Positions 7,212 to 63,725 of a DNA stretch of 64,000 nucleotides are shown piece by piece. How positions within the stretch are numbered: position 1 is the first letter of the stretch; each line of letters begins with the position of its first letter. The translations under genes and the position numbers were made by a program. Source of the DNA: Maribacter sp. HTCC2170. Its GTDB lineage: Bacteria; Bacteroidota; Bacteroidia; Flavobacteriales; Flavobacteriaceae. Location: assembly GCF_000153165.2 (NCBI RefSeq), contig NC_014472.1, forward strand, positions 2,043,501 through 2,107,500. Direction: 5' to 3'. The notes under the pieces are model-generated. The model was not told the DNA's origin. It did no database searches and was given only the letters and a program-made list of their open reading frames with translations.

Positions 7212-7552
7212 TTTAAAGCTCCTTTCTTCCATGCATAAAGTAATCCCAATCCCAAAATCACTAGAAAGATGAGGACTTCAATAAATGCGATTGCCCCAAA
7301 ATCCTTGAACACTACTGCCCAAGGTATCAAGAACGCAACTTCTACATCAAAAATCAAAAACAAAATGGCAAATAAATAATAGCCAACCTTAAATTGCACC
7401 CAAGTAGGCCCAATGGTCTTCATACCACTTTCATAAGGTTCTCTTTTTGAAGGATTATCGGATTTGTGCGAGATTAAATTTGATAAAAAATTTGCTCCAG
7501 CTACCAATACAATTCCAGCAATGAGAAATACAATAATTGCTTCTGATCCCAT
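7202..7552 (-). CDS. nuoA: NADH-quinone oxidoreductase subunit A
   Basis: A 116-residue protein with three transmembrane helices and the conserved loop [21 protein letters not shown] followed by [15 protein letters not shown], both diagnostic of NuoA. It lies 16 bp after the stop of korB, with no terminator between them, so it is probably transcribed from the same promoter as korA-korB. It anchors the peripheral arm near NuoH. Confidence 0.96.
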
Positions 7553-39225: not shown

Positions 39226-39280
39226 AAGGAGCGTTTTATTGAATACACAAATTACAAAATTCAAATCTTATATTATTAAT

Positions 39281-45565: not shown

Positions 45566-45803
45566 AATTATTGTAATTGGTTGGTTGAATAAACCAAAAT
45601 AAACGTTTTTAAATAATTAGACTATCTAATTTGGTTAATTTTAGGCAACAAATGGTAAATATTACAGTAAAAGCCACAAATGTTATTAAATTTTCAATTG
45701 TACTTCACTAGATGATTTCAAGTTTAATAAAAGGTCAGACTACTTTCTGCCACTTTAAAAGAGTTTTATTACCACATGAGTTTCCTGGTAATGTCGTCGT
45801 TCA

Positions 45804-47126
45804 CTAATTTTTCATCTTTATTTTCTTGTTGAGTAGATCACCAATACTGCGCCCTTGACCAACTCCAATATCTACTGCAGCTCGATAATGAATTCCGCCA
45901 TACATTCTGCTAATAGCGGCTTCATCGGCAGCTTTGTTGAAGGAAGAAAATTTTCTTATAGGCAATCCATAAGGTAATTCGGTATCATCCTCAAAGGCGA
46001 AGTTCTCCCCAAAAATAGAGGTCAAGGCAACACCAGCTGCCCCAGAAACCACGCTATGTCCACTTGTATATTCTGGAAATGGAGGTGTTTGTAATATTGG
46101 TTGCCAATTTTCATCTATATGTTGATTGATCAAGGTCTCTGGCCGTATTAGGTTACTTCTATATTTTTCATCCCAACAACTAATAAAAGCATCAGCAATG
46201 GCAATTGAAGTTTTGGCATATGCGAATACCGCTTCACCAAAATCACTATTGGTCTTTCTACTGGCTATTTTTGTAATGCCTATCCAATGCGCTCCTGGGG
46301 TAATCTTTTTTGTCGCAAACATTAGATGTCCTCTAGTTACCGAGACGTAAGGGTTGCAATCCCAGAATTTGGCAATGGCTATCTCTTCGGAATCATCACC
46401 ATTTACTGTTATTTTCTTGCTAATGTCATACACTTCTTTTAGTTCCTGAAAAAATTTTGAACCGGGCTCCATGGAAAAAGGCGGCGGGGAAACAGGCTTA
46501 AACTGTGCGGCAGAATCAAGAAAAAATGGACGTATTTTATTCCAATGAGGTTCTATACCATCCATGTATGCAGGGGGAGTAGGTTGCCATCTTGTGGGGT
46601 CATCAGTGTCAACCGAGTATTTAGGCATGGTACGGGTTTGGTTATAGTTGTCCTTTTCCATCCAGTTTTTAATATGGTTCGCTACCTGGTCGCCATAAAT
46701 TTTTGAGGCTTCAAATTCTTTTTCATTCAGAGCATTCCACTTGTTAAAAAGACTGTCTTGAAGAACATCAAATTTATCTTCTGAAAAAATCAATTGCTTG
46801 CTAATATTCATATGGGCTATTAGTGCCGCTAATTCTGGATTAACGGTTGGGTCAGAATTTGCGGGAATCGCCGTTAGCTCGTTTACTTGTCCGGCCAGGG
46901 ACTTGTATTCAGGATGCTCTTGGGCCATGATTTCGTAGGCTGCAATATTTGGATAGGCAAAAATTCTACTGGCAACCGGAGGAGAAAAAATGTCATGTAT
47001 CATTATCTCCACAACTTTATCAACTACGGTATGTAAATCTTCCTGAGTAAGTTCAATGTGCTCTTCTTTTTTATTACAGGAAAAAATAAGTGAACCAACA
47101 CACAAAAACATTAGTATTCTCTTCAT
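45804..47126 (-). CDS. vanadium-dependent haloperoxidase / PAP2-type lipoprotein
   Basis: A 440-residue lipoprotein (lipobox IFSC, Cys17). The PAP2/vanadium peroxidase signature is complete: KYRSNLIRP (Lys321 to Arg328-Pro329), SGHS (355-358) and SRMYGGIHYRAAVD (Arg407, His413). It binds vanadate or phosphate; it may be a vanadium haloperoxidase or an acid phosphatase of the same superfamily. The halide specificity is not visible. It is 22 bp downstream of the third VCBS/UnbV gene, likely in the same operon. Confidence 0.87.
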   Translation of the reverse strand: MKRILMFLCVGSLIFSCNKKEEHIELTQEDLHTVVDKVVEIMIHDIFSPPVASRIFAYPNIAAYEIMAQEHPEYKSLAGQVNELTAIPANSDPTVNPELAALIAHMNISKQLIFSEDKFDVLQDSLFNKWNALNEKEFEASKIYGDQVANHIKNWMEKDNYNQTRTMPKYSVDTDDPTRWQPTPPAYMDGIEPHWNKIRPFFLDSAAQFKPVSPPPFSMEPGSKFFQELKEVYDISKKITVNGDDSEEIAIAKFWDCNPYVSVTRGHLMFATKKITPGAHWIGITKIASRKTNSDFGEAVFAYAKTSIAIADAFISCWDEKYRSNLIRPETLINQHIDENWQPILQTPPFPEYTSGHSVVSGAAGVALTSIFGENFAFEDDTELPYGLPIRKFSSFNKAADEAAISRMYGGIHYRAAVDIGVGQGRSIGDLLNKKIKMKN

Positions 47127-47148
47127 CGGGTTTCTATTTAGTAGTATA

Positions 47149-50100
47149 TTATTTAATCGATTTTAGGTTTATTTTAATAGCCGTATTATTATTACTAATA
47201 GCTATGAATTGATCATCGTTGATCTTAATTATTTTTCTAAATTCAAAACTTTTGGGTAAATCCAATTCTTTATTCGTATTGAATGAAGTGCCATTAAAAT
47301 TGCTGAGTATGCCACCAGGATTACCATTATTGTTTCCGATTTCGGTAACAAAACCAAAATAGTTTCCAAGATATAGAACACCATTTTTAGAATTGACAAT
47401 ATCATTAATTGTACTGGACTGAGCCATCTTAGGTAATGGATGGCCTTTAAGCGATTCACCTGAATTCATGTATATCATGGATCTTACTTCATGGATTTCC
47501 TTGGATATATTTATTTTATTTTTGGGTACACCGGTAAGATCCTCGATATTCTTGACTTTTGAATACTGTTCATATGTTTTAAATCTTTTAGCTAAATAGG
47601 GTAATTGTGCATTAAGAGCGTCACGATTACCGAAAGGAACGTATTGGTCGAATAGGGGATAAAAAATTATAGGATCAGGTTGGCCATTTTCATCAAAATC
47701 ATGGATGTATAATTTCACCGGCAAAGAATCACTTGCCTGCCATTTAAAATTTTCACCAACATTACCAGCAATGATATCGGGAAATCCATTATCATCTATA
47801 TCTGCTATTTCAATGGTATTCCAAAGACCAGCTGTTTTGGTTAGACCAAGATTTGGGGTGTCGTATTTGAACTTCCCATTTTTTTGGTTCATTAGTATGC
47901 TAATGGGCATCCAATCACCTACAATGACAAGATCAAGGAAGCCGTCTTGATTTATATCCGCCCACTCACTATCGGTCACCATACCCATTTGGTCTTGGGC
48001 CTCAACCGTGAAACCTCCTTCACCAGTATTTTTAAGTATAAGACTTACAGGAGGTACTCCATACGCACCAGGCATAGATCTGCCACCCACAAAAAGATCC
48101 GTAAAGCCATCATTGTTATAATCCCCGGCAGCTAAACTACCACCATTGGTTGTTGGCAATTGTGCTTGTAATCTTTCAAAATTCCCTCCGCCTAGATTTA
48201 TATACATACGATCCTCAAATAATGGATCTCCTTGGGGCATATCATTACCGCCACTTTGCACATACAAATCAAGGTCACCATCGTTTTCCAAATCAAAGGC
48301 AACGGCGTCTATATCTTCATAGCGCTCATCGCCACTGAATGCTGGAACATCGACCAAAGCGAACCCATTGTTTTTTTCGCCCTTAAAAAAGGTGGGTTTT
48401 GAATACCTGGCTCCACCAATGAACAAATCCTTAATGCCATCACCATCTAAATCCTCATAAACTGCAGCCGGACCTTCGGTTGATAGTTTTTCGGGCATTA
48501 ATGGTTCCCGAACATAATCTAAATAATCATTCTCAAAATGCAGGAACGGAAATTTTTCTTGAGTATTTGTAATTGCCGTTTTTAAAGGATTAAAAGTTAT
48601 GTTACTTTCCTGCTTATGAATTGTTGTTTTTGAGTTGATCCTAATCTTGTTTTCAGTCTGTACTGTACCATCTGGCCAGAAAACTTGTATTGAATCAATG
48701 GTTTCCGTTTTACCCAAACCAAAATGTAGGATTCTTGTCGAGGAAGATTGAAACCCCCTGCTTCCGGCTAGTTGTTTTTCTTGTATGGTAGAATCGGAAA
48801 AAACATGAATTTTAACTCCTAATGCATTGGAATTAAGTTGATTATTGGCAAATTGGAATTGGACATAATTGCCATCTTCATTTGAGGACGTTTTATTTTC
48901 CAATATAGTTGCAGACTCATTGATATTGTTTACTACAAGGTCCAAATCTCCATCATTATCTAAATCAGAATAGGCGGCACCATTTGAATAAGAAGCTTTT
49001 AATCCAGCGGTTTTGCTCATTTTTTCAAATGAATAATTGCCTTGGTTCATAAACAGGAAATTGGGGAGTTTTACCATTGGCATTTTGTCAATGAGTTTTT
49101 TCTCAAGACCTGATTGTTCCGATTCACTGAACTTGGCAAAATCTGTCGTACTTAAGTATTTAACATAATCAAGGTCATTTGGACGTTTGTAAATCCCATT
49201 CGTTACGAAAATATCATTGCGGCCATCATTATCAAAATCCTGAATCAATGCGCTCCAACTCCAGTCAGTGGCATGGGTTTTTGTTAATGGGGCTATATCG
49301 GCAAAACCATTACCCTTGTTTATTTGCAAAGTATTTCTGGCATATTGGGTATGATATCCAAATTTTGATTTTATCTGAGTCACCTTGTCTGTGTCTTCAC
49401 CAGCAGATTTTAAGTGTATTTCCCTATCATAGGGCATCATATCCAAGGTGAAGATATCTGGTTTGGTATCACCATTGATATCACCTATATCCATACCCAT
49501 TGAAAATCTACTTGTATGTCCAAAAAAATCTTTGGAGCGTTCTTGGAATGTAACCTTCTGTGATTTGGGATCCCGACCGTTGTTTATATACAGGTAATCG
49601 TTTTCATGAAAATCGTTGCTTACATAAATGTCAGTTAAACCATCACCATTTACATCAGATGCATTAATACCCAAACCATAGCCAAGAGCACTGGAATAGA
49701 TACCTACATCATCTGTAATATTCACAAAGTTTAATTGGCCTTCGTTCAATTTATTTTCATAGAATTGATCACCAGAAAGACTGTCTTTTACTTTTCTGCG
49801 ATCTGTATTGCCATAACTTCTCAGGGTATGAACGGCATGGTTGAGTAAATACATATCCATATCCCCATCGTTGTCATAATCCAAAAAGGCAGCTTGGGTA
49901 CTGTAGCCTTTAAATCCAAGGCCTATTTCCTTGCCCATTTCCTTGAATTTAAGATTACCTTGATTTATGTATGCAAGGTTTCGTGAATTTTCATGGAACA
50001 CCCCTACCTTGGAAACATAAATATCAATAAGACCATCATTATTGATATCCTCCATGGTTACTCCCGTAGACCAAGTGGAGTCTATTTTTACCCCAGCTTT

Positions 50101-50433
50101 TGCCGTTATATCTTCAAACTTTAGATTACCCTTGTTCAAGTATAGCTTATCCGGCAATTGATTGCCAGTAAAATAAATATCATCTAGGCCGTCATTATTA
50201 ATATCTCCTAAGGCAACACCCCCACCATTGTAATAATACAGATAGTCTATTATATTAATATTTTCCACATAAGTTAAAGTGTTGGAAAAATCAACATTAC
50301 TATGATCTAATGGAACTTCCTCGAAAAGAGTGGTTCCATTAAACTCGTTATTTTTACTCTTATCCTTGGTACATGATAAATGAAGAAGGAATAGTACGAG
50401 AATGAAAATTATATTTTTATTGTTTTTTTCCAT
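47149..50433 (-). CDS. VCBS/FG-GAP repeat and UnbV lipoprotein, paralogue 3
   Basis: A lipoprotein of 1094 residues, preferred start ATG 50433 (MEKNNKNIIFIL), lipobox HLSC. It carries about a dozen calcium-type repeats of the form D-x-[DN]-x-D-G-x-x-D-[IL], for example DINNDGLDDIYFTG, DVNGDGLTDIYVS and DLDGDGIKDLFIGG. Around residues 540-605 is an ASPIC/UnbV domain (LGVKIHVFSDSTIQEKQLAG ... ILHFGLGKTETIDSIQVFWPDG). It overlaps the upstream paralogue by 17 bp. Proteins of this class are common beside SusCD and may be surface-exposed binding proteins. Confidence 0.88.
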   Translation of the reverse strand: MEKNNKNIIFILVLFLLHLSCTKDKSKNNEFNGTTLFEEVPLDHSNVDFSNTLTYVENINIIDYLYYYNGGGVALGDINNDGLDDIYFTGNQLPDKLYLNKGNLKFEDITAKAGVKIDSTWSTGVTMEDINNDGLIDIYVSKVGVFHENSRNLAYINQGNLKFKEMGKEIGLGFKGYSTQAAFLDYDNDGDMDMYLLNHAVHTLRSYGNTDRRKVKDSLSGDQFYENKLNEGQLNFVNITDDVGIYSSALGYGLGINASDVNGDGLTDIYVSNDFHENDYLYINNGRDPKSQKVTFQERSKDFFGHTSRFSMGMDIGDINGDTKPDIFTLDMMPYDREIHLKSAGEDTDKVTQIKSKFGYHTQYARNTLQINKGNGFADIAPLTKTHATDWSWSALIQDFDNDGRNDIFVTNGIYKRPNDLDYVKYLSTTDFAKFSESEQSGLEKKLIDKMPMVKLPNFLFMNQGNYSFEKMSKTAGLKASYSNGAAYSDLDNDGDLDLVVNNINESATILENKTSSNEDGNYVQFQFANNQLNSNALGVKIHVFSDSTIQEKQLAGSRGFQSSSTRILHFGLGKTETIDSIQVFWPDGTVQTENKIRINSKTTIHKQESNITFNPLKTAITNTQEKFPFLHFENDYLDYVREPLMPEKLSTEGPAAVYEDLDGDGIKDLFIGGARYSKPTFFKGEKNNGFALVDVPAFSGDERYEDIDAVAFDLENDGDLDLYVQSGGNDMPQGDPLFEDRMYINLGGGNFERLQAQLPTTNGGSLAAGDYNNDGFTDLFVGGRSMPGAYGVPPVSLILKNTGEGGFTVEAQDQMGMVTDSEWADINQDGFLDLVIVGDWMPISILMNQKNGKFKYDTPNLGLTKTAGLWNTIEIADIDDNGFPDIIAGNVGENFKWQASDSLPVKLYIHDFDENGQPDPIIFYPLFDQYVPFGNRDALNAQLPYLAKRFKTYEQYSKVKNIEDLTGVPKNKINISKEIHEVRSMIYMNSGESLKGHPLPKMAQSSTINDIVNSKNGVLYLGNYFGFVTEIGNNNGNPGGILSNFNGTSFNTNKELDLPKSFEFRKIIKINDDQFIAISNNNTAIKINLKSIK

Positions 50434-53400
50434 AATTGATTTGTACCACTGAATCATTATTTCTTGCAACTAGAAGTTTGTTCGAATTGGGTATTTTCTT
50501 GATACTTCTTATTTCACCATCAATAAAGAATCCCTTATTTGACAAATGTGTTTGAAACTTAAGTTTTCCTTTGTTTTCAATATATAAACCATAAGAGGCA
50601 TCGTAACGACCCACTTCAGGTTTGGTTTTATATAGATTTCCACCCATTATTATATCCATGTCCCCATCTTCGTCAAAATCAACAGTTTCTATGGCGAAAA
50701 TTGGAGTTAATTGTGCTTCGATCGGTAATTCCAGACTACTAAATGTGAATCCGCCTTCATTTATCAATAGGGTAGTGGCCAATGTATTTGCCTCTAAAAT
50801 AGTAACGCTCTGCATTTGTGCCTCATCAAACATATCATTGATTGTTGCATCTTGAAATGAATCATAATCAGGAAATTTCTTTTTGAGCTCTTTAATCTGA
50901 TCAATTAGGTCGTGACGCAATGCATAAGGATAGTCTTTACCGTTTTCGGATGTAAAGGTCATAATAGGATCAATACGACCATTGTTATCAAAATCGTTGA
51001 CATAAAGCTTTGTTGGGCTTTGCGTAGTTGCTGTGAACCTACTGTTTAACCCATGATTACCAATAATTAGGTCTTGGTCGCCATCACCATCAATATCTGC
51101 ACTTTCCACAGTGTTCCACCAACCTGAGAGTTGAGGAACTTTGTCTTCTGATATTTTTTTAAAGCTACCATTTTGATTACTGAAAATACTAATATCCATA
51201 AACTCGCCTACAACCACTAAGTCTAAGAGTTCATTCCCATCTAAATCAACAAATCTGGCATCTGTGATCATTCCCATATTGATTAAATCAGGTGCTAGGT
51301 CAATAGTTGACTCTTTAAAATTTCCTTCCCCATCATTCACTAGAATAAAACCGGATGCCTTAACGCCATATTTACTTGGGATAACCCTTTCCCCAACAAA
51401 AAGGTCAATATCACCATCAAGGTCAATATCTGCAGCGGTAACTGTACTCGAACTATTATGTGAATTCTCCTGAGGTAGTATTTGGTCAGAAAGGTCAAAT
51501 TTACCATGGCCATCATTAATATATAGCCTATCATGATAATTGGATGAGAAAGGGGTGAATTCTACACCGCCACTACAAACATATAAATCCAGGTCATTGT
51601 CCTTATCTGCATCAAAAAATACAGCATTAACATCTTCAGAGGCCGAGTGTTTTATAAATGCGGGTTGATTACTTTGAACAAAGCCTGATCCAGTTCCTAG
51701 AAGTAATGAAGAAACCTGACCTTTTGCTCCCCCAATGAAAACATCTTCAATCCCATCATTATTAATATCGCCAACGGCAATATTGGGACCTTCTGTACTC
51801 ATCATACTGTTCAACAGACGATCCCTATTAAAATCAACATAATTATTTTCCTCATGAACAAATGGAATTTTTGTGCCATCAGTTTGGAAAAGAACCATTT
51901 CATCTTCAATTGGTTTCTTATAGTTGTTCAAGGCCTCATCTTGAGAAAATGTCAATGTCGAGGAAGTGTTCACATTTTCACTCAATGTAGTTTTCCCGTC
52001 GGGCCAAATGATTCTTACCGAAGCACTTTTAGCACTGCCAACACCTATATTTGGACGAAGATCCATACTTGATTGGAATCCTCTTATAGGCTGTTGCTCA
52101 TAATACAATGTGTCATTTGGTAAATAGACCTCTATCTGTGATCCAATTGCGAAAGGATTGCCTTCAGTCCCCTTCAATATTAATTTTAAATAGTTGTTTT
52201 GATATATTTCGTTCGCGTTGTTCTTATATAAGAACATTTCTGAATTAACATTATTGACCACAAGATCTAAATCACCATCATTATCAAGATCGCCATAGGC
52301 CGATCCATTGGAGAAACTTGGCTCTAACAATCCAGATTCTTTATAAAGGTCAAAACTTAATTGGCCTTTATTATGATAAGCTTGATTGGGTACTTTATTC
52401 GAAGGGATGATTTCAATTAATTTTTTATAATCGATCTCATTATTGATTACAATACTTTTTACAATCTCTTCGTTCGAAATATAATTCAAATAGTCCTGGT
52501 CGGTTAGATCTTGGTACACTCCATTAGCAATATAAAGATCCTTTAAACCATCATTGTCCATATCAAAAAAAAGTGCTCCCCAACTCCAATCAGAAGCCTC
52601 AACGCCGCTAAAACGACCAATCTCACTAAAAGTACCATTACCATTATTACGCTGTAACATATTTCGTGTGAATTGATGATAATATCCATTCTTAACGTTG
52701 TATTGGTATTTGTTCCAATCTTCGAAAGTGGTGACGGTTTTAAGTCTCTTGTAATCACTTGGTAACATTTCGGTCACAAAAATCTCTTTATGACCGTCAT
52801 TGTCAACATCTGCTAAATCGGCTCCCATAGAAGCACCACTTAAAGATTTTATTTGATCAACCAAAACCTCTTCAAAGGTTCCATCTTGCTTGTTAAGGTA
52901 TAAATAGTCTCTTTCAAAGAAATCATTGGATACATAAATATCTTCCCAGCCATCATTATTTGTATCACCAACGGTTACTCCTAGTCCAAACCCGATAACA
53001 CTACCATAAATGCCGGCTTTTTCGCTAACGTCAACAAATTTCCCATTTCTGTTTTCCATGAGCTTGTCGCCACCTTCCTCATCACGTTTTGGCCTTTCGT
53101 TTTTTCTGAGATTAAAACTACCGATCGCCTGATACGAATTATTCAAAAGATAAGCATCTAGATCGCCATCCTTGTCATAATCAAAAAATGAAGCATGTGT
53201 AGAATATCCTTTATCGGCAAGGCCGTATTGTTCAGCACTCTCAGTAAATGTGAGGTCACCGTTATTTATGAAAAGTTCATTTTGCTTGTTGTCGCCTTTA
53301 ACATCACCAGAATTACAAACATAAATGTCTAAAAATCCGTCAGAATTAATGTCTACCATGGTTACTCCCGTAGACCATGCTTTGTTCCCTGCAACTTTGG

Positions 53401-53737
53401 CAACATTGGTAACGTCTTCGAATTTGAAATCACCCTTATTCAAAAACAATTTGTTTTCAGTTGCATTGGCCGTTAAATACATATCTATTAAACCATCATT
53501 GTCAACATCGCCTAAAGCAACTCCACCGCCATTATAATAATTGCGATAGGTATACACATTAAAGGCATTGTTAAAAGGAAGGGTATTGTTAAAGCTAATT
53601 CCTGAATCTTCAGAATTTACTAAAGAGAAGAGGGGTTCATTAACCGATTTTTCTTCTTCTTTTTTTTGATTGCATGACAAGAAGAATATGGAAAAAATTA
53701 AAAAAAACAGCGTATTGTTATTACAATTCCTTCGCAT
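50417..53737 (-). CDS. VCBS/FG-GAP repeat and UnbV lipoprotein, paralogue 2
   Basis: A 1106-residue lipoprotein (lipobox FLSC). It has the same layout as its neighbours: calcium-type repeats from about residue 70 (GDVDNDGLIDMYLT, DINSDGFLDIYVCNSG, DYDKDGDLDAYLLNN), the ASPIC/UnbV domain near residues 535-600 (IGSQIEVYLPNDTLYYEQ ... VRIIWPDGKT), then more repeats to the end. Its start overlaps the end of the small lipoprotein gene by 17 bp and its end overlaps the next paralogue by 17 bp. Confidence 0.9.
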   Translation of the reverse strand: MRRNCNNNTLFFLIFSIFFLSCNQKKEEEKSVNEPLFSLVNSEDSGISFNNTLPFNNAFNVYTYRNYYNGGGVALGDVDNDGLIDMYLTANATENKLFLNKGDFKFEDVTNVAKVAGNKAWSTGVTMVDINSDGFLDIYVCNSGDVKGDNKQNELFINNGDLTFTESAEQYGLADKGYSTHASFFDYDKDGDLDAYLLNNSYQAIGSFNLRKNERPKRDEEGGDKLMENRNGKFVDVSEKAGIYGSVIGFGLGVTVGDTNNDGWEDIYVSNDFFERDYLYLNKQDGTFEEVLVDQIKSLSGASMGADLADVDNDGHKEIFVTEMLPSDYKRLKTVTTFEDWNKYQYNVKNGYYHQFTRNMLQRNNGNGTFSEIGRFSGVEASDWSWGALFFDMDNDGLKDLYIANGVYQDLTDQDYLNYISNEEIVKSIVINNEIDYKKLIEIIPSNKVPNQAYHNKGQLSFDLYKESGLLEPSFSNGSAYGDLDNDGDLDLVVNNVNSEMFLYKNNANEIYQNNYLKLILKGTEGNPFAIGSQIEVYLPNDTLYYEQQPIRGFQSSMDLRPNIGVGSAKSASVRIIWPDGKTTLSENVNTSSTLTFSQDEALNNYKKPIEDEMVLFQTDGTKIPFVHEENNYVDFNRDRLLNSMMSTEGPNIAVGDINNDGIEDVFIGGAKGQVSSLLLGTGSGFVQSNQPAFIKHSASEDVNAVFFDADKDNDLDLYVCSGGVEFTPFSSNYHDRLYINDGHGKFDLSDQILPQENSHNSSSTVTAADIDLDGDIDLFVGERVIPSKYGVKASGFILVNDGEGNFKESTIDLAPDLINMGMITDARFVDLDGNELLDLVVVGEFMDISIFSNQNGSFKKISEDKVPQLSGWWNTVESADIDGDGDQDLIIGNHGLNSRFTATTQSPTKLYVNDFDNNGRIDPIMTFTSENGKDYPYALRHDLIDQIKELKKKFPDYDSFQDATINDMFDEAQMQSVTILEANTLATTLLINEGGFTFSSLELPIEAQLTPIFAIETVDFDEDGDMDIIMGGNLYKTKPEVGRYDASYGLYIENKGKLKFQTHLSNKGFFIDGEIRSIKKIPNSNKLLVARNNDSVVQINYGKKQ

Positions 53738-54299
53738 CGTATTTATTATTTAGATTTTCAATTTGAACTGAAACGTCTTTATTGTTGGGGTCATTATAAA
53801 CCTTTATCTGTCTATTGCCATCAACTTTTATATGTACTATTTGTCCATTTTCAAGATTCACTTTGAGAAAGTCGTTACCTGGGAACCAAGTTAAAAGAGA
53901 GTCCTTTACTTTAGGCGCTAGCACATAGTTGTATAATTGCTTATTCCATGGGGCCCAACCAGAATGGTAAAATTTAATGTCCATACCATCTATGATGCCA
54001 TTATCTTGATTGGTGGCGTAGAAAAGCATGATTATATTGGTGCTGTCGGCACCTGGTTTTAGGTTATATTGGGCATATTTATTGCTCGGCCCTTGTATTA
54101 CGAGACCTTTCTTATTTAATTCTAAGCATCTATCAAAAAAAACTTGCTTGTGATCCCCAAACTTTAGACCGAACAATAATGAATCTTTTTGTATTCCTTT
54201 CTTTAGTTCGGTTTTCACCATTTTACTATAGTCAGATTGGCAATTAATTGTAATAATTGCCAAAGAGCATATTAAGATTGTTTTTTTAATGAGATTCAT
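53721..54299 (-). CDS. small lipoprotein between VCBS paralogues
   Basis: A 192-residue protein with a lipoprotein signal (MNLIKKTILICSLAIITINC, lipobox Cys20). No family was recognised. It overlaps the VCBS/UnbV gene before it by 14 bp and the one after it by 17 bp, so it is translated as part of the same operon. Its small size and position suggest an accessory surface protein. Confidence 0.65.
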   Translation of the reverse strand: MNLIKKTILICSLAIITINCQSDYSKMVKTELKKGIQKDSLLFGLKFGDHKQVFFDRCLELNKKGLVIQGPSNKYAQYNLKPGADSTNIIMLFYATNQDNGIIDGMDIKFYHSGWAPWNKQLYNYVLAPKVKDSLLTWFPGNDFLKVNLENGQIVHIKVDGNRQIKVYNDPNNKDVSVQIENLNNKYDAKEL

Positions 54300-57200
54300 A
54301 CTGGTAAAATTTTACTTTATCATTGTTCAGTACAACGATAATTGTTTTTCTTTCGGCTTCTTTTATCACTCTCATATCTCTAATTTGACCTGAAACACCT
54401 AGAATTTCAGGCTTTTGGTATTGAATGGATTTGACGTCAGGATTACCAAATACCAACCATCCTTTTGAGGCATCTAATTTACCAAATTGGGGCTTGACGA
54501 GCTCTTGGTTTCCTCCTAAAATTAGATCTAAATATCCATCATTATTGAAATCTGCACTTTCGATAGCGTAGATATTACTATACTGTATTTCTTTAGGTAA
54601 ACTCATTGTTTCAAAGACGTCACCATTATTAATAAAGACAGACGTTTCTGTAATATTTAATTCGGCGTGATAAGACTTGGAAAATATTTCTGGATCTATG
54701 ATTTCTTGTAGATCAAAATTTGCATAGTCTTTATAGTAAAGTAATTTCTTTTTAAGGGAAGGCAGTTGCGAAATAAGTTCATCTTTATCTAATAATGGAA
54801 AGTACTTTCCATTTACATTTTGACAAAGAATTTGTTCCGATTTACCATTACTGTCAAAATCATTAACAAAGATTGAAGTCCCTTTTTTATAGACATAATT
54901 GTTGCCGATATTACCTGCGATTATATCAAAGTCTCCGTCTTTATCAATATCTGCGATATGTAGGGAAGACCATATGCCGTTGGTGTCTTTGAGACCATAT
55001 GAATCAGTGGCATTCGTAAATGTGCCACTTTTGTTGATGAAAATGGATATTGGCATCCATTCTCCTACCACGATTAAATCTAACCAAGAATCCTTGTTGA
55101 TATCTACCCAATAGGATGATGTAATCATTCCAAGATTTGAGAATGGTTGGGAATTATCCAATTCAAACGTATTGTCACCATTATTCTTTAACAAATAACC
55201 ATTTACAGGCTCTCCGTAAGAATCTGGATTAAAACGCTCCCCTACAAATAGGTCAAGGTCACCATCTTTGTCATAGTCAGCAGCACTAACTGTAGATGAA
55301 CTTATTGTTTTTTCAAAGGGCAACTTAATACTCGCTTCTACAAAATTCCCTTTTCCTTCATTAATATAAAGGCGGTCGTTAAGTTTGCTGTCGTATTTTG
55401 AAAATGATTTGCCGCCGCTACATACATAAAGATCCAGGTCACCATCATTATCACTATCAAAAAAGATTGAGTTCGTGTCTTCACTTCCGATATCTTTGGC
55501 AAAAGGGTTTTCTTTAGCCTCATACCCCTTAGAAGTGCTAATGAATAATTTGCCGCCTTTTCCTTTTGAACCACCTAAAAAGTAATCTTGTTTTCCATCC
55601 TTATTAATGTCTGCAATGTCAAAAGCAGGTCCTTCATTGCTCACCATGCGATCTAATAGTTGTTCCTTTTTAAAATCGATGGCATTGTTTTCAATGTGAA
55701 CATAATCAAAAAGAGGATTTATTTCTTTAACTACATTTTCGGTTTCTTTTTGGAAGTTGAAATTTACGGGCAGGGCATTACTTTGCTCTATTACCAGTGT
55801 TGTGTCGACAACTAGATTTAATAAGTTGGTAACGTCATCACTTGGCCAAATTATTTTTAAACTATCAATGGTCTTGTTTAAACCCAAACCAATAACAGTT
55901 TCTGCAGGGGTAGAGCTTTGAAACCCTCTAGAAGAATAATTCTCAGAAAACACTACCGATCCATCTGGGCAATAAGCATAGATTTTAGCCCCTATGCCCT
56001 GGGTATTCTTATTTAGACCTTTGAATCGAAGCTTTATATAATGGTTATCAAGCTTTTCGGAGTTGTTTTCATAAATAAAAGACGGCATATTCACATTGTT
56101 TACAACAAGGTCTAAATCACCATCATTATCTAAGTCGCCGTAAGCGCTACCATTACTAAAACTTGGTTTTCCAAGACCTAAAGAGTCGGAATTCTGTTTA
56201 AAAACCAAATTCCCTTTATTGAGAAATGCTGCATTTGGGATAGCCTTTGACGGTATTAAGTCTATCATTTTCATAATAGCTTCGCTATTATTTTCCATTA
56301 ACGCTTTTACCGTGTTGGTGTTCGACATATAATTCAAATAATCCCGATCAAGTAAATCCTTATAAATGCCATTACTGATGAAGATGTCTTTTAACCCATC
56401 ATTGTTCATGTCAAAAAAGAGTGTGCTCCAACTCCATTCGGTAGCATCAACACCCGTTATTCTTGATAGTTCAAAAAAACCATTGGCACCCATATTTTTT
56501 TGAAGAACATTTCTAGGGTATTGGGAAGCATATCCATTTTTAACGGCTAAGGAATGTTTGTCCCAAGATTCAAATGTGGCTTTGGTCTTTTTTCGTGCCT
56601 GGGAGGTTGGCAGCATTTCGGCTACCATTATTTCAGCTAAGCCATCGTTGTCTAGATCACCGGCATCAGCACCCATACTTCCCATAGATTGGGATGTAAA
56701 AGAATCGTCTGATTTTTCATTGAATTTAACACCCTTGTCATTGAGGTATAAATAATCTTTTTCAAAGTAGTCATTGGAAATGAACAGATCGGTCCAATTA
56801 TCATTATTGAAATCTGAGAGTGTAATCCCAAGGCCAAAGCCAATTGCACTCGAATAAATACCTTTCTCCGTAGAAACGTCATAGAACTTTCCATTTCTGT
56901 TCTCCATAAGCTTATTGCCATTAGGGGACGGGATTTCTCGCTGATCTTTTATTAAATCATATCCGCCAACAGACCGTATGGAATTGTTTAAAAGGTAGCA
57001 GTCCAAATCCCCATCTTTGTCGTAATCAAAAAAAGCGGATTGTACAGATAAACCAGTTACATCCAAGTTGTATTCCTTACTTTTTTCGGTAAATGTAATT
57101 TGTCCTGAGTCTTTGGATTGACCATTGTTGATAAATAGCTCATTGTGTCTATTTATTCCTCCTGGCTGTCCAGATTTACAGACGTAAATATCTAAAAGGC

Positions 57201-57579
57201 CATCGGCGTTTATATCTACAAAAGTAGCGCCTGAAGACCAAATATTCGGACAGGCAACCCCAGCGGCACTTGTTATATCTTCAAATTGCCAGTTGCCTTT
57301 GTTTAAATAAAGTTTGTTGTTTACGAGATTTCCTGTGAAGTAAATGTCCAATAGGCCATCGTTATTGATATCTCCTAGAGCGACTCCGCCTCCATTGTAA
57401 AAATTCCGATAAATGTAAGGATTGAAATTTTCGGTATAAGTAAGCGTATTCTCGAAGAGTATACCCGTTTCATTGGTATACAGTTTAAACAAAGAACTGG
57501 GTATTTCTTCCTTTTTGCACGAAAGTATAAACAAAAGAATTGTAAAAAGAAGAAGGGAATGGCGCCTACACATTATCAA
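54286..57579 (-). CDS. VCBS/FG-GAP repeat and UnbV lipoprotein, paralogue 1
   Basis: A 1097-residue lipoprotein (start MIMCRRHSLLLF, lipobox ILSC). The repeat motifs include DINNDGLLDIYFTG, DINADGLLDIYVCKSG, DLDNDGDLDLVVNN and DYDKDGDLDLFVGE; the ASPIC/UnbV domain lies near residues 530-600 (GIGAKIYAYCPDGSVVF ... LKIIWPSDD). It is the first of three tandem paralogues, 68 bp downstream of susD with a hairpin in the gap. The three proteins share order, length and domain plan, so they arose by duplication. Confidence 0.9.
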   Translation of the reverse strand: MIMCRRHSLLLFTILLFILSCKKEEIPSSLFKLYTNETGILFENTLTYTENFNPYIYRNFYNGGGVALGDINNDGLLDIYFTGNLVNNKLYLNKGNWQFEDITSAAGVACPNIWSSGATFVDINADGLLDIYVCKSGQPGGINRHNELFINNGQSKDSGQITFTEKSKEYNLDVTGLSVQSAFFDYDKDGDLDCYLLNNSIRSVGGYDLIKDQREIPSPNGNKLMENRNGKFYDVSTEKGIYSSAIGFGLGITLSDFNNDNWTDLFISNDYFEKDYLYLNDKGVKFNEKSDDSFTSQSMGSMGADAGDLDNDGLAEIMVAEMLPTSQARKKTKATFESWDKHSLAVKNGYASQYPRNVLQKNMGANGFFELSRITGVDATEWSWSTLFFDMNNDGLKDIFISNGIYKDLLDRDYLNYMSNTNTVKALMENNSEAIMKMIDLIPSKAIPNAAFLNKGNLVFKQNSDSLGLGKPSFSNGSAYGDLDNDGDLDLVVNNVNMPSFIYENNSEKLDNHYIKLRFKGLNKNTQGIGAKIYAYCPDGSVVFSENYSSRGFQSSTPAETVIGLGLNKTIDSLKIIWPSDDVTNLLNLVVDTTLVIEQSNALPVNFNFQKETENVVKEINPLFDYVHIENNAIDFKKEQLLDRMVSNEGPAFDIADINKDGKQDYFLGGSKGKGGKLFISTSKGYEAKENPFAKDIGSEDTNSIFFDSDNDGDLDLYVCSGGKSFSKYDSKLNDRLYINEGKGNFVEASIKLPFEKTISSSTVSAADYDKDGDLDLFVGERFNPDSYGEPVNGYLLKNNGDNTFELDNSQPFSNLGMITSSYWVDINKDSWLDLIVVGEWMPISIFINKSGTFTNATDSYGLKDTNGIWSSLHIADIDKDGDFDIIAGNIGNNYVYKKGTSIFVNDFDSNGKSEQILCQNVNGKYFPLLDKDELISQLPSLKKKLLYYKDYANFDLQEIIDPEIFSKSYHAELNITETSVFINNGDVFETMSLPKEIQYSNIYAIESADFNNDGYLDLILGGNQELVKPQFGKLDASKGWLVFGNPDVKSIQYQKPEILGVSGQIRDMRVIKEAERKTIIVVLNNDKVKFYQYESH

Positions 57580-57593
57580 CCATTTAAAAATAC

Positions 57594-57625
57594 AAAGAGG
57601 GTAACTTATAAAAGTGACCCTCTTT
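57594..57625 (-). terminator. hairpin between susD and the VCBS genes (attenuator)
   Basis: AAAGAGGGT (57594-57602) pairs with ACCCTCTTT (57617-57625) around a 14-nt loop. On the minus strand it is followed by GTATTTTTAAA. It lies 22 bp after the susD stop. Such a hairpin could reduce transcription of the VCBS genes relative to susC-susD or protect the susCD message from decay. Confidence 0.65.
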
Positions 57626-57647
57626 TAAATTTATGAATATTATTTGA

Positions 57648-59276
57648 TTAGTACCCGGGGTTCTGGGTCAATGAACCACCAGCTGCATCAATTTGATCTT
57701 GCGGAATAGGCATTAACTCAGTATGAGCACCAGCATCAACTGGCTTTTCCCACCAGGCATCAGCCCATTTCCCAAAGCGAATTAAATCTCTTCTTCTTGT
57801 TGTTTCCATGAACATTTCTCTTCCTCTCTCGGCTAAGAAACTATCGGCATCAACACTAGCTAATGCAGCTACACCTGCTCTTTGGCGAATTATGTTAACA
57901 TCAGCCAAGGCCATAGACCAATCGGCAGCGTTACGAGCGGCAGCTTCTCCACGAACCAAGTACATCTCACCTAAACGAACTATAGGCCAGTCGTTGTTCA
58001 TTTCGTTCTTCCCATATTGTTGGAAACTGAATTTACCCAAACGGGTACCACCATCTCGTTGAGCATTTGGTTCCAATTCATTTACATTAGTTGTATAGTT
58101 AAGTGGTGGATCTGCAGAATCTGAGTAATCCACAATTTGGTTACCACCTGCATCTAGTTGAGGCCCTGCTATAAAGTTAATGGACTTTCTAGCGTCACCA
58201 TCTTCATATGAATTGTAAAATTCTTCTAAGGCCACATAACCATTCCAAGGCTGAGCTTGAAGATTCCATGAAAACTGACTAGAATAATGTAAGGTCATTT
58301 GAGTATAGTTCATACCGCTAGCAGTAACATCATCATATTCTATTGACCAGATTATTTCTGGATTGTTTTGATTGTTAGGTGCAAAAACCGTCGCATACCC
58401 ACTAAGCATTTCTGGATCCGTGTCAACACCAGGGCGTTTTCCTAAGTTGTTCTTTTCAAAACTTGAATCAACCAAGGTATAACCACCATTACTAATAATG
58501 TAATCAGCTGCATCGTGAGCTTCTTGCCAACGAGCAGTACCCGTATATACTTCAGCATTCAGGTACAATTTTGCCAAAACACCCAAAGCAGCAAATTGAT
58601 TGATACGATATTTGTCATCAGCTACAGTTAAATCACTACCCGATAAGTCCATTGCTGGGCTAACTGAGGCTATTCCCAATGTACTCAGTAATTCGCTTTC
58701 AACGAAAGCAAATACCGCAGCTCTATTCGATTGAGGAGCATCACCACCTGGAGTAGTTACTATTTTAACGTTACCATATAGATCACAAAGTCTTAGGTAA
58801 AAGAAAGCACGTAATGCTTTAACCTGAGCTAGTTCATTAGCGTTTAATCCTCCGTTTGCAATTTTGTCATTACATTCTGCAACACCACCATAAAGGTTAC
58901 CCCAAGCACCACCAATTGGTCCGTTAGTTGGTCCTGCAGTGTGACGGTGAACATCTAACCATATACCACCATCGTACCAGTCACCACCTTTTTGGGTAAT
59001 TGCCATCTCGTCGGTTGATACTGATTGTACTGACCAGTAACCACCATGGTTCGCACTACCATCACGTAGTTTTGAATAAGGGCCCAGCAAAGAAGCTGAT
59101 CCACCCCCGTTACCACCATTACCATTACCTTCTGCACTCGCAGCATTGCCGTCTACACTAAATTGTTCTGTTATCTCGTTTTGTAATTCTTCCTCTAAAT
59201 CAGTACATGCTGCACCGAAAACCAAGAGACCAGAGACCAACCCCTTGAGAAGTATACTTTTATTTGGAAATTTCAT
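57648..59276 (-). CDS. SusD/RagB family outer-membrane lipoprotein
   Basis: A lipoprotein of 542 residues, preferred start ATG 59276, lipobox GAAC (Cys24). The TPR-like SusD fold is seen in words such as ALRAFFYLRLCDLYGNVKIVT, RWQEAHDAADYIISNGGY and the C-terminal VRLGEMYLVRGEAAAR with RRRDLIRFGKW. It would cap the partner SusC barrel and bind the glycan or other nutrient. It begins 31 bp after susC ends. In-frame ATGs at 59300 and 59321 are less likely because they add a poor signal peptide. Confidence 0.94.
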   Translation of the reverse strand: MKFPNKSILLKGLVSGLLVFGAACTDLEEELQNEITEQFSVDGNAASAEGNGNGGNGGGSASLLGPYSKLRDGSANHGGYWSVQSVSTDEMAITQKGGDWYDGGIWLDVHRHTAGPTNGPIGGAWGNLYGGVAECNDKIANGGLNANELAQVKALRAFFYLRLCDLYGNVKIVTTPGGDAPQSNRAAVFAFVESELLSTLGIASVSPAMDLSGSDLTVADDKYRINQFAALGVLAKLYLNAEVYTGTARWQEAHDAADYIISNGGYTLVDSSFEKNNLGKRPGVDTDPEMLSGYATVFAPNNQNNPEIIWSIEYDDVTASGMNYTQMTLHYSSQFSWNLQAQPWNGYVALEEFYNSYEDGDARKSINFIAGPQLDAGGNQIVDYSDSADPPLNYTTNVNELEPNAQRDGGTRLGKFSFQQYGKNEMNNDWPIVRLGEMYLVRGEAAARNAADWSMALADVNIIRQRAGVAALASVDADSFLAERGREMFMETTRRRDLIRFGKWADAWWEKPVDAGAHTELMPIPQDQIDAAGGSLTQNPGY

Positions 59277-59307
59277 TTGTTTATTTTTTAGAATTTTCAT
59301 AGCTATA

Positions 59308-60915
59308 TTAAAACTTTGCAACTAGACCCAAACTAAAGGTTCTTTGGGTAAAGTAGTTGTTACGCCGGTCGATACCAGGAGTCAAAGGATCTGCATTGGT
59401 GCCTGGATCACTGCCATTATCAGCATTACCAACATCTTGCAATGAAGCTTCAGGATCATTACCTGTATAGCTCGTAATCGTAAACAAGTTCTGGCCAGCT
59501 ACATTTGCTGTTAAGCTTTTAAGGTATTTAGACAAGTTTTCACCTAAATTGAATGAGTAAGAAACGCTGAGGTTGTCCAGTCTAAAGAAATCAGCTTTTT
59601 CTACATAATGAGAACTGAATTTAGCTGTTTTGATGTTCTCATCTGCCAACTCGGTATTAACAAAATTGTAACCGGTTTGTGATCCAACTCTAGGCTCAAA
59701 GAAAACTCTATAGTTGTTTACTAAGCTATGGCCAAACTGCCCTCTAAAGAAAGCGTTTACATTCCAATTGCCTACGGTCAGTTGATTCGTCCATCCTAAT
59801 TCGAAATCTGGAATACCGTTACCTAATACTGCTAAATCACCATCGGTAAAGTTTTCTTTTGTTTGATCAGTTTCGATTGTACCATCACCATCAACATCTT
59901 CGAATATCTGGCTTCCATCTGCATCAACTTCACCTGACCATACCGAACCAACTATTTGACCAATTTGCTCACCTTCCTGCACTAAAACAACCTCGGTGTC
60001 ATTTTGACCAGGAGCACCTAAGCTTCCTCTTAATTCAATAGGGTTAAGATATTCTTTAAGAGTAGATTTGTAAGATGAAAGAACAATTCCTGAATTATAA
60101 TTCAACTTATCATTTTGGATAAAATCATAATTGGCAGCCAATTCAACACCATTTGTTTGGATTTTTCCTGCATTACTGAATTTAGTTCCAGAAGGATGTT
60201 CTGAAGCTTCAATAGTAAATGGAATAATAAAATCTGTATTGTTTCTGCTGTAAACATCAACAGTCGCACTTAAACGGTCAGTAGCAAATTCAAGACCAAA
60301 GTTTATTTCTGCTTTTTCTTCCCATTTTAAATCGGGGTTTGGAGCACGCCCACCGTCAAAGGTTGTAGCCCATCCCGTTTCAGAGCTATTACCTGTATAA
60401 CCATAGATTTCACGAGAGTACCCATTACCACCAGGTAATGCTCCTGTGACACCATAACCTACTCGAAGTTTTAAGAGATTTACGTTAGGCAATTCTAGAT
60501 AGTTGTTCAAGTCTACACCTAAACCTACAGCTGGGAAGGTACCCCACTTGTTTTCTTCACCCAATCGTGTAGAACCTTCATGACGAACAGATGCATTTAA
60601 GAAAATTGCATTATCCCAAGTATAGTTCACACGACCAAAGAATGCGATGATCCTATCTTCCGGAGATAACCAACTACCGCCACCGATTCTACTTGCACCA
60701 CCAAGCTGAAAAGCACCGGCAATACCATAATTATTTGACCAATCTATCGCATCGTTTGGAAAATCACGTAAAGTAATGCTGTTATTTTGCCATACTTGCT
60801 CCTGCCAAGAATAACCAACTGTTGCAACCAAGCTAGAGTTGCCACCTAATTGTGGAGTGATTGTGGCATAAGCTTCAAACAAATCAGACTCATAGTCATC
60901 ACTCATAGTCATCAT
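59308..60915 (-). CDS. SusC TonB-dependent receptor, C-terminal part (frameshifted gene)
   Basis: The 535-codon frame holds the second half of the SusC barrel: beta-strand-rich sequence with GVTGALPGGNGYSREIYGYTG and the C-terminal RRNNYFTQRTFSLGLVAKF, the usual end of SusC proteins. It has no signal peptide, and its first residues (MMTMSDDYE) come from the duplicated 13-bp unit, so this is not a separate gene. Joined with the upstream part it completes one receptor. In the current sequence it would only be translated by re-initiation. Confidence 0.88.
   Translation of the reverse strand: MMTMSDDYESDLFEAYATITPQLGGNSSLVATVGYSWQEQVWQNNSITLRDFPNDAIDWSNNYGIAGAFQLGGASRIGGGSWLSPEDRIIAFFGRVNYTWDNAIFLNASVRHEGSTRLGEENKWGTFPAVGLGVDLNNYLELPNVNLLKLRVGYGVTGALPGGNGYSREIYGYTGNSSETGWATTFDGGRAPNPDLKWEEKAEINFGLEFATDRLSATVDVYSRNNTDFIIPFTIEASEHPSGTKFSNAGKIQTNGVELAANYDFIQNDKLNYNSGIVLSSYKSTLKEYLNPIELRGSLGAPGQNDTEVVLVQEGEQIGQIVGSVWSGEVDADGSQIFEDVDGDGTIETDQTKENFTDGDLAVLGNGIPDFELGWTNQLTVGNWNVNAFFRGQFGHSLVNNYRVFFEPRVGSQTGYNFVNTELADENIKTAKFSSHYVEKADFFRLDNLSVSYSFNLGENLSKYLKSLTANVAGQNLFTITSYTGNDPEASLQDVGNADNGSDPGTNADPLTPGIDRRNNYFTQRTFSLGLVAKF
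60888..60913. repeat. exact 13-bp tandem duplication inside susC
   Basis: ACTCATAGTCATC occurs twice head to tail (60888-60900 and 60901-60913). Thirteen is not a multiple of three, so the second copy shifts the reading frame and creates a stop at 60899-60901. With one copy the coding strand reads ...VFNDDYESDLFEA..., continuous, and the gene has exactly 997 codons including the stop. Confidence 0.92.
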
Positions 60916-62311
60916 TAAATACGTCTGCTCTACCTTTTATTGTTGATGCCGCCTCACCTCTAAAGTGCGAAGTAGGAGAGTAATACTGTCTGTTATTATT
61001 TCTATTAAGTTGTTTTGAATATGTCGCAGTCAATGAAATATTATCAGTAAGTGCATATTTTAAATCAACTCCCGCCAAGAATTCGGTTCTTCTTCCAGTA
61101 TTTGAATTTTGCTCAACAATAGATACTGGGTTAAAAGAATCAAACAATCCTAAGGCTTCGAAGTAGCCCCCGAATTGTGCAGCGTTAAAAGCAAAAGGTG
61201 AATCAGCACCATTAACTGGAGCCGTTGGGTTATACAATACACCATATCTTAATGCTTCATAAAAGCCAAATTCACTTTTTCTGTTGGTCAACGAGCTATT
61301 GAATCCAATTTTTAATTTGTCATTCAAAATAGAAGTCGAAATATTCGCACGTGTATTGAATTGATCAAATCCACTATTTTGTAATATTCCATCTACATTT
61401 CTGAAGTTGGCAGAAACACGGTAGCTGGTATTTCCTGATGATCCAGAAACAGCAAAATTATTGACGTAAGTAGTTCCATTTTGTGTCACTAAATCTAACC
61501 AATCATTACTAAAACCTAAATCTACACCACCTGCAGCTCTGAATTCAGCAGGAGTCATTACATCCACAGTTTTAGCTACTGATGATACTGAAGCTTGACC
61601 ACTGTATTCAAAACTAGTAGCTTCTCCGGTACCTTTTTTCGTAGTTACCAAAATTACACCACTTGAACCACGAGAACCATAGATTGCAGCGGCAGAACCA
61701 TCTTTAAGTACGTTGATATTCTGAATATCATTAGGGTCTATATTGTTTAATGAAGCACCAATAACTCCATCCACAACAACTAGAGGCTCCGTGTTGGCAC
61801 CAATAGTGTTCAAACCTCTTAAACGAATAGTACCGTTCGAGTTAGGGTCACCACCTCTGTTAGAAATTGTAAGACCGGCCACTTTACCTTGAAGCAATTG
61901 GGCTGGTGAGTTAACAACACCTTTGTTGAATTCCTCAGCATCCAATTGGACAACTGCAGAAGTGATTTCTTTCTTGTTCTGAGAACCATAACCTACAATT
62001 ACAACCTCATCCAATGCCTGGGCATCTTCTTGGAGTGTAATATTGATTGTAGATTGTCCATTCACGGCAACTTCTGTAGTGCTGTAGCCAATATAGCTAA
62101 TAACCAAAGTCGCATTGTCACTAACAGTTATGGTGAAATTCCCATCAAAGTCAGTTTGAGTTCCATTTGTGGTTCCTTTTTCCACAACACTAGCTCCCGG
62201 TAAGGGACCATTTGCATCAGAAACGGTTCCTGATACTTCTTGAGCTTGAGCAATACCAAAGCATAAAAATGCTCCGAAAAGCATAAAGCTTTTTAGCAAT
62301 GTAATCTTCAT
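60899..62311 (-). CDS. SusC TonB-dependent receptor, N-terminal part (frameshifted gene)
   Basis: A 470-residue piece: signal peptide (MKITLLKSFMLFGAFLCFGIAQAQ), a carboxypeptidase-like domain (GTVSDANGPLPGASVVEKG, residues about 27-95), the TonB-box region EVVIVGYG near residue 106, the plug domain (LLQGKVAGLTI, IRLRGLNTIGANTEPLVVVDG, VLKDGSAAAIYGSRGSSGVI) and the first strands of the barrel. The frame stops after GRADVFNDDYE because of the 13-bp duplication. As it stands the barrel is incomplete and the receptor should not insert properly. Confidence 0.9.
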   Translation of the reverse strand: MKITLLKSFMLFGAFLCFGIAQAQEVSGTVSDANGPLPGASVVEKGTTNGTQTDFDGNFTITVSDNATLVISYIGYSTTEVAVNGQSTINITLQEDAQALDEVVIVGYGSQNKKEITSAVVQLDAEEFNKGVVNSPAQLLQGKVAGLTISNRGGDPNSNGTIRLRGLNTIGANTEPLVVVDGVIGASLNNIDPNDIQNINVLKDGSAAAIYGSRGSSGVILVTTKKGTGEATSFEYSGQASVSSVAKTVDVMTPAEFRAAGGVDLGFSNDWLDLVTQNGTTYVNNFAVSGSSGNTSYRVSANFRNVDGILQNSGFDQFNTRANISTSILNDKLKIGFNSSLTNRKSEFGFYEALRYGVLYNPTAPVNGADSPFAFNAAQFGGYFEALGLFDSFNPVSIVEQNSNTGRRTEFLAGVDLKYALTDNISLTATYSKQLNRNNNRQYYSPTSHFRGEAASTIKGRADVFNDDYE

Positions 62312-62690: not shown

Positions 62691-63725
62691 ATGATGAAAA
62701 GAAAAATAACGTTAAAACACATAGCAAGAGAGTTGGATGTATCTATTTCAACGGTTTCCAAAGCACTTAAGAATAGTCCAGAAATAAGTGTTGATACAAA
62801 AGAAAAAGTTCAAGCCTTTGCAAAACTTTATAATTATAAGCCCAATAATGTAGCGATTAGTCTTAAAAACAAGCGTACCAAAAACATTGGGGTTATTATT
62901 CCGGATATTGTACATCACTTTTTCACCACGGTATTTAGGGGAATAGAGCAATACGCGAATAAACTTGGTTACAATGTTGTTGTTTGCGTCTCAGATGAAT
63001 CTTTTGACAAAGAGGTAATAAATATGGAGATGTTGGCCAATGGGAGTGTTGATGGTTTTATCATGTCATTGTCCGCAGAAACACAAAGGCTAAACGACTA
63101 TAATCATTTAAAGGAAGTTACCGATCAAGGAATACCTTTAGTATTGTTTGATAGGACTACCGATGTCATACAATGTGACAAAGTAATAATAGACGACAAA
63201 GAAGGAGCCAAATTAGCGGTTAAAAAGTTCATTAACAATGATAAAAAAAGAATTGCCCTTGTTACCACTGAGAATTATTTTAGCGTAAGCAATGAACGTG
63301 AAGCTGGGTATAGAGAAGCACTAGGTGAGGCGAAAATTAAAATAAACGAAAATCACATATTAAAGTTGCCAAATATGGAGGTTGATGAAAATGCGATACA
63401 GGAATTTTTCAACACTCAAGAAGTTGATGCAGTACTTTGTGTAAATGAGATTTTTGCAATACACTGTATGAATTTAGTACAAAATATGGCAAAGAATATC
63501 CCCGGGGATATTTCATTTATAGGATTCACCGATGGTATTTTATCGAAATACGCGAATCCAGGTTTAACATCAATTGCCCAACATGGAGAAAAAATGGGTG
63601 AAGTCGCTGCTCGCATGCTCATAGAGAAAGTAGAATATGAAACTGAAGATGAAGAAGAACAAGAAGTTTATCATACTGAGGTAATCAACTCTACTATAAT
63701 AGAACGAGGCTCAACAATCAATTAA
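62691..63725 (+). CDS. LacI family transcriptional regulator
   Basis: A 344-residue repressor-type regulator. The N-terminal helix-turn-helix and hinge are clear (TLKHIARELDVSISTVSKALKNSPEIS, then NNVAISLKNKRTKNIGVIIPD), followed by a periplasmic-binding-protein-like sugar sensor domain (from about residue 65) ending in SFIGFTDGILSKYANPGLTSI. It is divergent from susC and 11 bp upstream of beta-phosphoglucomutase. Its operator candidate is at 62405-62420. The effector is probably a sugar or sugar phosphate. Confidence 0.94.
   Translation: MMKRKITLKHIARELDVSISTVSKALKNSPEISVDTKEKVQAFAKLYNYKPNNVAISLKNKRTKNIGVIIPDIVHHFFTTVFRGIEQYANKLGYNVVVCVSDESFDKEVINMEMLANGSVDGFIMSLSAETQRLNDYNHLKEVTDQGIPLVLFDRTTDVIQCDKVIIDDKEGAKLAVKKFINNDKKRIALVTTENYFSVSNEREAGYREALGEAKIKINENHILKLPNMEVDENAIQEFFNTQEVDAVLCVNEIFAIHCMNLVQNMAKNIPGDISFIGFTDGILSKYANPGLTSIAQHGEKMGEVAARMLIEKVEYETEDEEEQEVYHTEVINSTIIERGSTIN

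Follow-up and report, generated by a model that had tools for sequence, protein, structure and literature searches.

The nearest analogues of the structure described here would seem to be short duplications in pneumococcal capsule genes. In PMC4022640, phase variation through spontaneous sequence duplications is described for the type 3 locus and for cap8E and tts of types 8 and 37, and the work is attributed to Waite et al. (2001, 2003). According to the same source, these duplications lie inside an open reading frame and are accompanied by loss of a surface product, a likeness to the susC gene analysed here. There are also differences: in the pneumococcal case switching was seen in culture and the target is a capsule gene, whereas here we have one state in one assembly, and the gene concerned codes for a nutrient receptor in a genome of Flavobacteriaceae type. 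The capsule duplications are reportedly exact and head to tail, and are said to revert precisely. A second group for comparison is that of the simple-sequence-repeat contingency genes, which have persistently unstable sites with numerous copies of short units, whereas the susC site has two copies of 13 bp, an arrangement absent in relatives. Genes of this group are known for example from Neisseria meningitidis, where, according to PMC5084427, the reading frame is set by the tandem copy number, as it is in susC.

The window, i.e. the whole 64-kb stretch of DNA analysed (C1:2043501-2107500 of the genome), contains two exact head-to-tail copies of the 13-bp unit ACTCATAGTCATC at 60888-60913, within a gene for a SusC/RagA-type TonB-dependent receptor (Table 1). 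The period-13 run has 27 bases in total, and the flank common to both copies is at most 1 bp. With up to one mismatch allowed, the two copies are the sole matches to the unit in the window (0.05 are expected from shuffled sequences), and the doubled form, with up to two mismatches, occurs a single time in the 3,868,304 bases of the single-contig genome. One exact tandem with a unit of 13-60 is seen in the 64 kb of the window, as compared to a mean of 0.01 per 64 kb in 100 sequences simulated with an order-3 Markov model; therefore the two copies reflect a true duplication, not a resemblance by chance.

Table 1. Features of the interrupted susC gene and its surroundings (window coordinates).
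Feature	Position	Strand	Remarks
13-bp unit ACTCATAGTCATC, copy 1 (+ strand order)	60888..60900		exact, head to tail with copy 2
13-bp unit, copy 2	60901..60913		period-13 match extends one base beyond, to 60914
susC 5' part, 470 aa	60899..62311	-	CarbopepD_reg_2 (26-105), TonB plug (113-219), barrel start; TIGR04056 and TIGR04057
susC 3' part, shifted frame, 535 aa	59308..60915	-	barrel remainder (PF00593; TIGR04056 positions 472-981)
SusD-family gene	57648..59321	-	length as in relatives; likely true start ATG 59276 (by eye)
FG-GAP/ASPIC-UnbV protein 1	54286..57579	-	conserved neighbour of the SusCD pair
192-aa protein	53721..54299	-	no Pfam domain matched at E<=0.001; conserved, flanked by the ASPIC genes
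FG-GAP/ASPIC-UnbV protein 2	50417..53737	-	part of the conserved cluster
LacI-family regulator	62691..63725	+	divergent from susC
HAD/beta-PGM-like gene	from 63737, past window end		after LacI; further on, outside the window, GH65 and GH13 genes (L118)

Since 13 is not a multiple of three, the reading frame shifts at the duplication. In reading order the first frame stops at TGA TGA, immediately past the GAG of the first copy, and the remainder of the gene continues in a different frame that has no stop over 535 aa; the other two frames of the minus strand contain 37 and 67 stops. The domains that mark the SusC/RagA type (TIGR04056, plug, CarbopepD_reg_2 and barrel) are all present but are spread over the two open reading frames. 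TIGR04056 passes its cut-off on the 5' piece (378.8 bits versus 368.25), while the 3' piece scores 235.5 bits, which is below the cut-off when this piece is taken alone. Among solved structures, the top match of the 5' piece is the SusC homologue 8aa4 (E = 3.5e-60). The susD gene lies directly downstream, as indicated by PF07980 in the next gene and by relatives with the same order. What the gene lacks, in comparison to a functional SusC, is a single uninterrupted frame. The initial annotation had thus correctly described an exact tandem duplication inside a SusC gene, the break after 470 residues and the openness of both remaining pieces, and its arithmetic for the one-copy gene is also right (3004 - 13 = 2991 bases, i.e. 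997 codons including the stop).

The surroundings of the gene were surveyed in 24 relative loci from 23 genomes (20 stretches, L138-L157, and the four named loci L002, L003, L006 and L008). All 24 contain both SusC parts together with SusD and the 192-aa protein. Two separate places matching ASPIC proteins are found in 22 loci by best match and in the remaining two when all matches are considered; of these last two, L008 is cut by the end of the locus and in L140 the match is in two frames. A LacI match is present in 22 of the 24 loci, at 63-83% identity in 13 and at 26-39% in nine, and in two of the latter (L152 and L002, from one genome) the LacI gene is about 7 kb away. The neighbouring genes of the window align over their own length with those of the relatives, their lengths are comparable and no other frame break is found. 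SusC, SusD, the 192-aa protein and two large FG-GAP/ASPIC-UnbV proteins thus form a conserved cluster (50417-62311), located beside GH65 and GH13 genes; a literature search for ASPIC/UnbV together with SusC under the term Flavobacteri found no paper. Judged by gene families, the GH65, GH13 and beta-PGM-like genes after LacI point to maltose- or trehalose-type alpha-glucosides as the substrate. SusD begins just past susC, so the loss of susC translation might reduce SusD expression, an effect that may be softened if translation restarts at the ATG codons inside the duplication.

A few further observations concern the same region. The cluster is followed (43913-50469) by genes for a sodium:solute symporter, a protein of the PAP2 superfamily and a third protein of the ASPIC type. 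Most of the 24 relative loci end near the cluster edge; within them the symporter was matched once, weakly, and PAP2 not at all. At 38032-39264 a protein of 410 aa is encoded that combines an HD domain with a PycTM domain (Pycsar effector). In a member of the genus, G011 (L140 881-8003), the ASPIC1-type gene is matched in two frames, with their junction at 7248-7260, and the largest two of the ASPIC frames reach only 829 and 833 aa, yet SusC is open. Frame breaks in the cluster are not unique to the window, and sporadic gene breakage occurs elsewhere in the cluster as well, as in this genome.

The state of the gene before the duplication can be deduced from comparison with its relatives. In the genus (12 genomes including our own), five other genomes have an orthologue with 55-58% identity and an open frame of 989-1018 aa, and the remaining six have weaker matches only, 28-35% identical at best. 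In the family, the 3' piece was used as query at E<=1e-140, with up to three first-look candidates scored per genome, and 36 of the 397 genomes were matched, our own and 35 others. In each of the 35 others the gene is a single stop-free frame of 946-1035 aa, as compared to 542 for the frame of our own 3' piece. The alignment contains 36 relative rows from 35 genomes (L002 and L076 are the same gene), drawn from four of the 28 named loci and from 32 loci of the genus and family searches. The motif DDYE occupies the same columns on both of our pieces, at the end of the first and near the start of the second, so that the two pieces meet in the alignment and overlap in DDYE alone. In 35 of 35 aligned relatives there are no added residues at this site and the frame continues straight through. 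The shared DDYE columns and the relatives without extra residues indicate that one copy of the unit is ancestral and the duplication derived, in line with the single-copy ancestor that had been proposed. A repeat at the site, constant or variable, is found in none of these relatives, whose identity in the 3' half does not exceed 58%, so that this is a genus- and family-level comparison. Exact tandems with a unit of 10-60, judged by coordinates, were not found inside the scanned SusC orthologues. The intact SusC genes of the same cluster (e.g. L031, or L002 of Algibacter luteus) are the same gene with the same SusD and ASPIC neighbours, with one copy and one frame, unlike the two-copy split gene described here.

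We consider it likely that a single spontaneous 13-bp duplication caused a loss-of-function mutation that is reversible in kind, with no evolved switch behind it. The 13 bp within susC would have been copied through slippage or template switching at a site offering no more than 1 bp of homology, and the resulting shift would lead into the TGA TGA directly after residue 470. Flanking homology of at most 1 bp is typical of spontaneous short duplications, and the common flank seen here fits a chance-type duplication better than it fits an array. The truncated half-barrel would form no receptor, and the second open reading frame could restart at the ATGs of the duplication, but its product, without a signal peptide, would stay intracellular. 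SusC receptor function has therefore probably been lost in the sequenced strain, because the barrel is divided and the second piece has no signal peptide; the sequenced cell would have been without a receptor whose substrate is probably an alpha-glucoside. Because the copies are perfect, precise loss of one of them could restore the gene, which would make the lesion more reversible than an ordinary frameshift.

A rather unlikely alternative is that the duplication is the off state of a contingency (phase) switch, in which one and two copies interconvert at high rate and turn the receptor on and off, and that phage pressure, or growth in the absence of the substrate, maintains this state. The copies are perfect and in principle reversible in one step, the product is a surface protein and both pieces are open. 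Copy number does alter the frame at this site, the relatives being single-copy, and pneumococcal capsule genes are reported to be phase-variable through spontaneous duplications (PMC4022640). Against the switch are the presence of two copies only, the lack of a second copy in 35 of 35 aligned relatives and the lack of tandems of unit 10-60 inside the scanned SusC orthologues. RNA folding at the duplication site is also unremarkable (z = -1.25), and among the literature matches listed no case of SusC control by de novo short tandem duplication was met (the word start 'SusC' also matches 'susceptible'). The proposal of the initial annotation that the repeat is a phase switch that helps to evade phages thus lacks support, given the two copies and the lack of such tandems in the scanned orthologues.

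We also considered whether frame-breaking duplications are a habit of this genome as a whole. The sample consisted of the window and 20 stretches with 1,000 bases common with the window (464 kb). It contains six exact tandems with a unit of at least 10 that is not a multiple of three (the cut at 10 was our choice) and six more with a unit of 8. A genome-wide habit was rejected, as five of the six longer-unit tandems stay within a single open reading frame and the susC tandem alone spans two. In relatives, two tandems of unit 10-60 were found in 684 kb and two in 400 kb (the sets share sequence), but these samples are mostly coding receptor loci and their rates are not fairly comparable with that of our sample. 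Both tandems of the 400-kb set are located between susC and a LacI-type gene; exact 11-bp A-rich tandems lie in this gap, as placed by match positions, at L149 12303-12324 and L150 12317-12350. Elsewhere in our own genome, a SusD-like gene carries an exact 11-bp tandem close to its end (L133 2534-2559), and by eye the end of its protein looks normal. Many exact tandems with units of 9, 18, 27 and 36, all multiples of three, are found at L121 12398-19933 (C1:112398-119933), and DNA units such as AAAGGTGAC suggest collagen-like coding repeats.

That an assembly or sequencing error doubled the 13 bases is unlikely, although the single open frame in the 35 matching relatives is what one would expect in that case. 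The 27-base array is well inside one read, exact 13-base duplications are an unusual type of sequencing error, and the neighbouring genes show no other frame break. In addition, 32 of the 37 Plug matches of this one-contig genome are in frames of at least 706 aa. These last two points speak against a poor assembly as a whole, though less against an isolated error at this site. The five in frames below 700 aa measure 611, 636, 472, 584 and 230 aa. The frame of 472 is the split susC, that of 611 has counterparts of similar size (611-637 aa) in three further genomes, and those of 584 and 230 are weak matches. It is highly improbable that the two-copy gene still works, through a +1 frameshift of the ribosome at the stop or through co-translation of two half-proteins: the ATG codons at the start of the second frame, inside the duplication, overlap the first stop and would allow a coupled restart, but a programmed frameshift or split-protein function is ruled against by the relatives (0 of 35 aligned have the second copy) and by the absence of strong local RNA structure, and, judged by eye, the 535-aa piece has no signal peptide and no prfB-like shift motif was recognised at the site.

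Several measures bear on the age of the lesion. In the 3' piece about 4.1% of single-base changes would give a stop, and since none is present, unconstrained change would amount to no more than about 72 changes (4.5% of sites) at the 95% level. Of the columns invariant among the relatives, our 5' part keeps 91 of 92 (leave-one-out mean of the relatives 0.989) and the 3' part 101 of 104, i.e. 0.971 versus a leave-one-out mean of 0.994 and a minimum of 0.963. Other measures speak against a recent event: the 3'/5' identity ratio of our SusC (0.898) is the lowest of 36. With a length of 0.543, as compared to 0.292 in the 5' part, the terminal branch of the 3' part is longer than any other among the 36, and the 3'/5' branch ratio is the sixth highest of 36. 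As a control, SusD, the 192-aa protein and ASPIC2 are the lowest and ASPIC1 the second lowest of 21 in mean identity, and LacI, beta-PGM-like, GH65 and GH13 are mid-range among the same 21. The 3' SusC half deviates most (0.542 versus a mean of 0.623 in the relatives; SusD 0.597 versus 0.657). Because its neighbours on the susC side are also lowest or second lowest, it appears that in this lineage the locus has diverged along its entire susC side, which would explain much of the 3' deviation. An old pseudogene was considered and rejected: the 3' piece is the most deviant, but its 535 codons are open and other genes of the operon are also among the most divergent. We give the open frame more weight than the 3' divergence and lean to the earlier view that the event is probably recent, because 535 codons have stayed open, though the 3' half is unusually divergent.

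Provided that the two-copy state is real, the strain is expected to have an alpha-glucoside-type locus that is complete except for its receptor, and growth tests with this strain could therefore mislead about its lineage. One-copy molecules in the same culture, if found, would provide a clean case of reversible SusC receptor loss.
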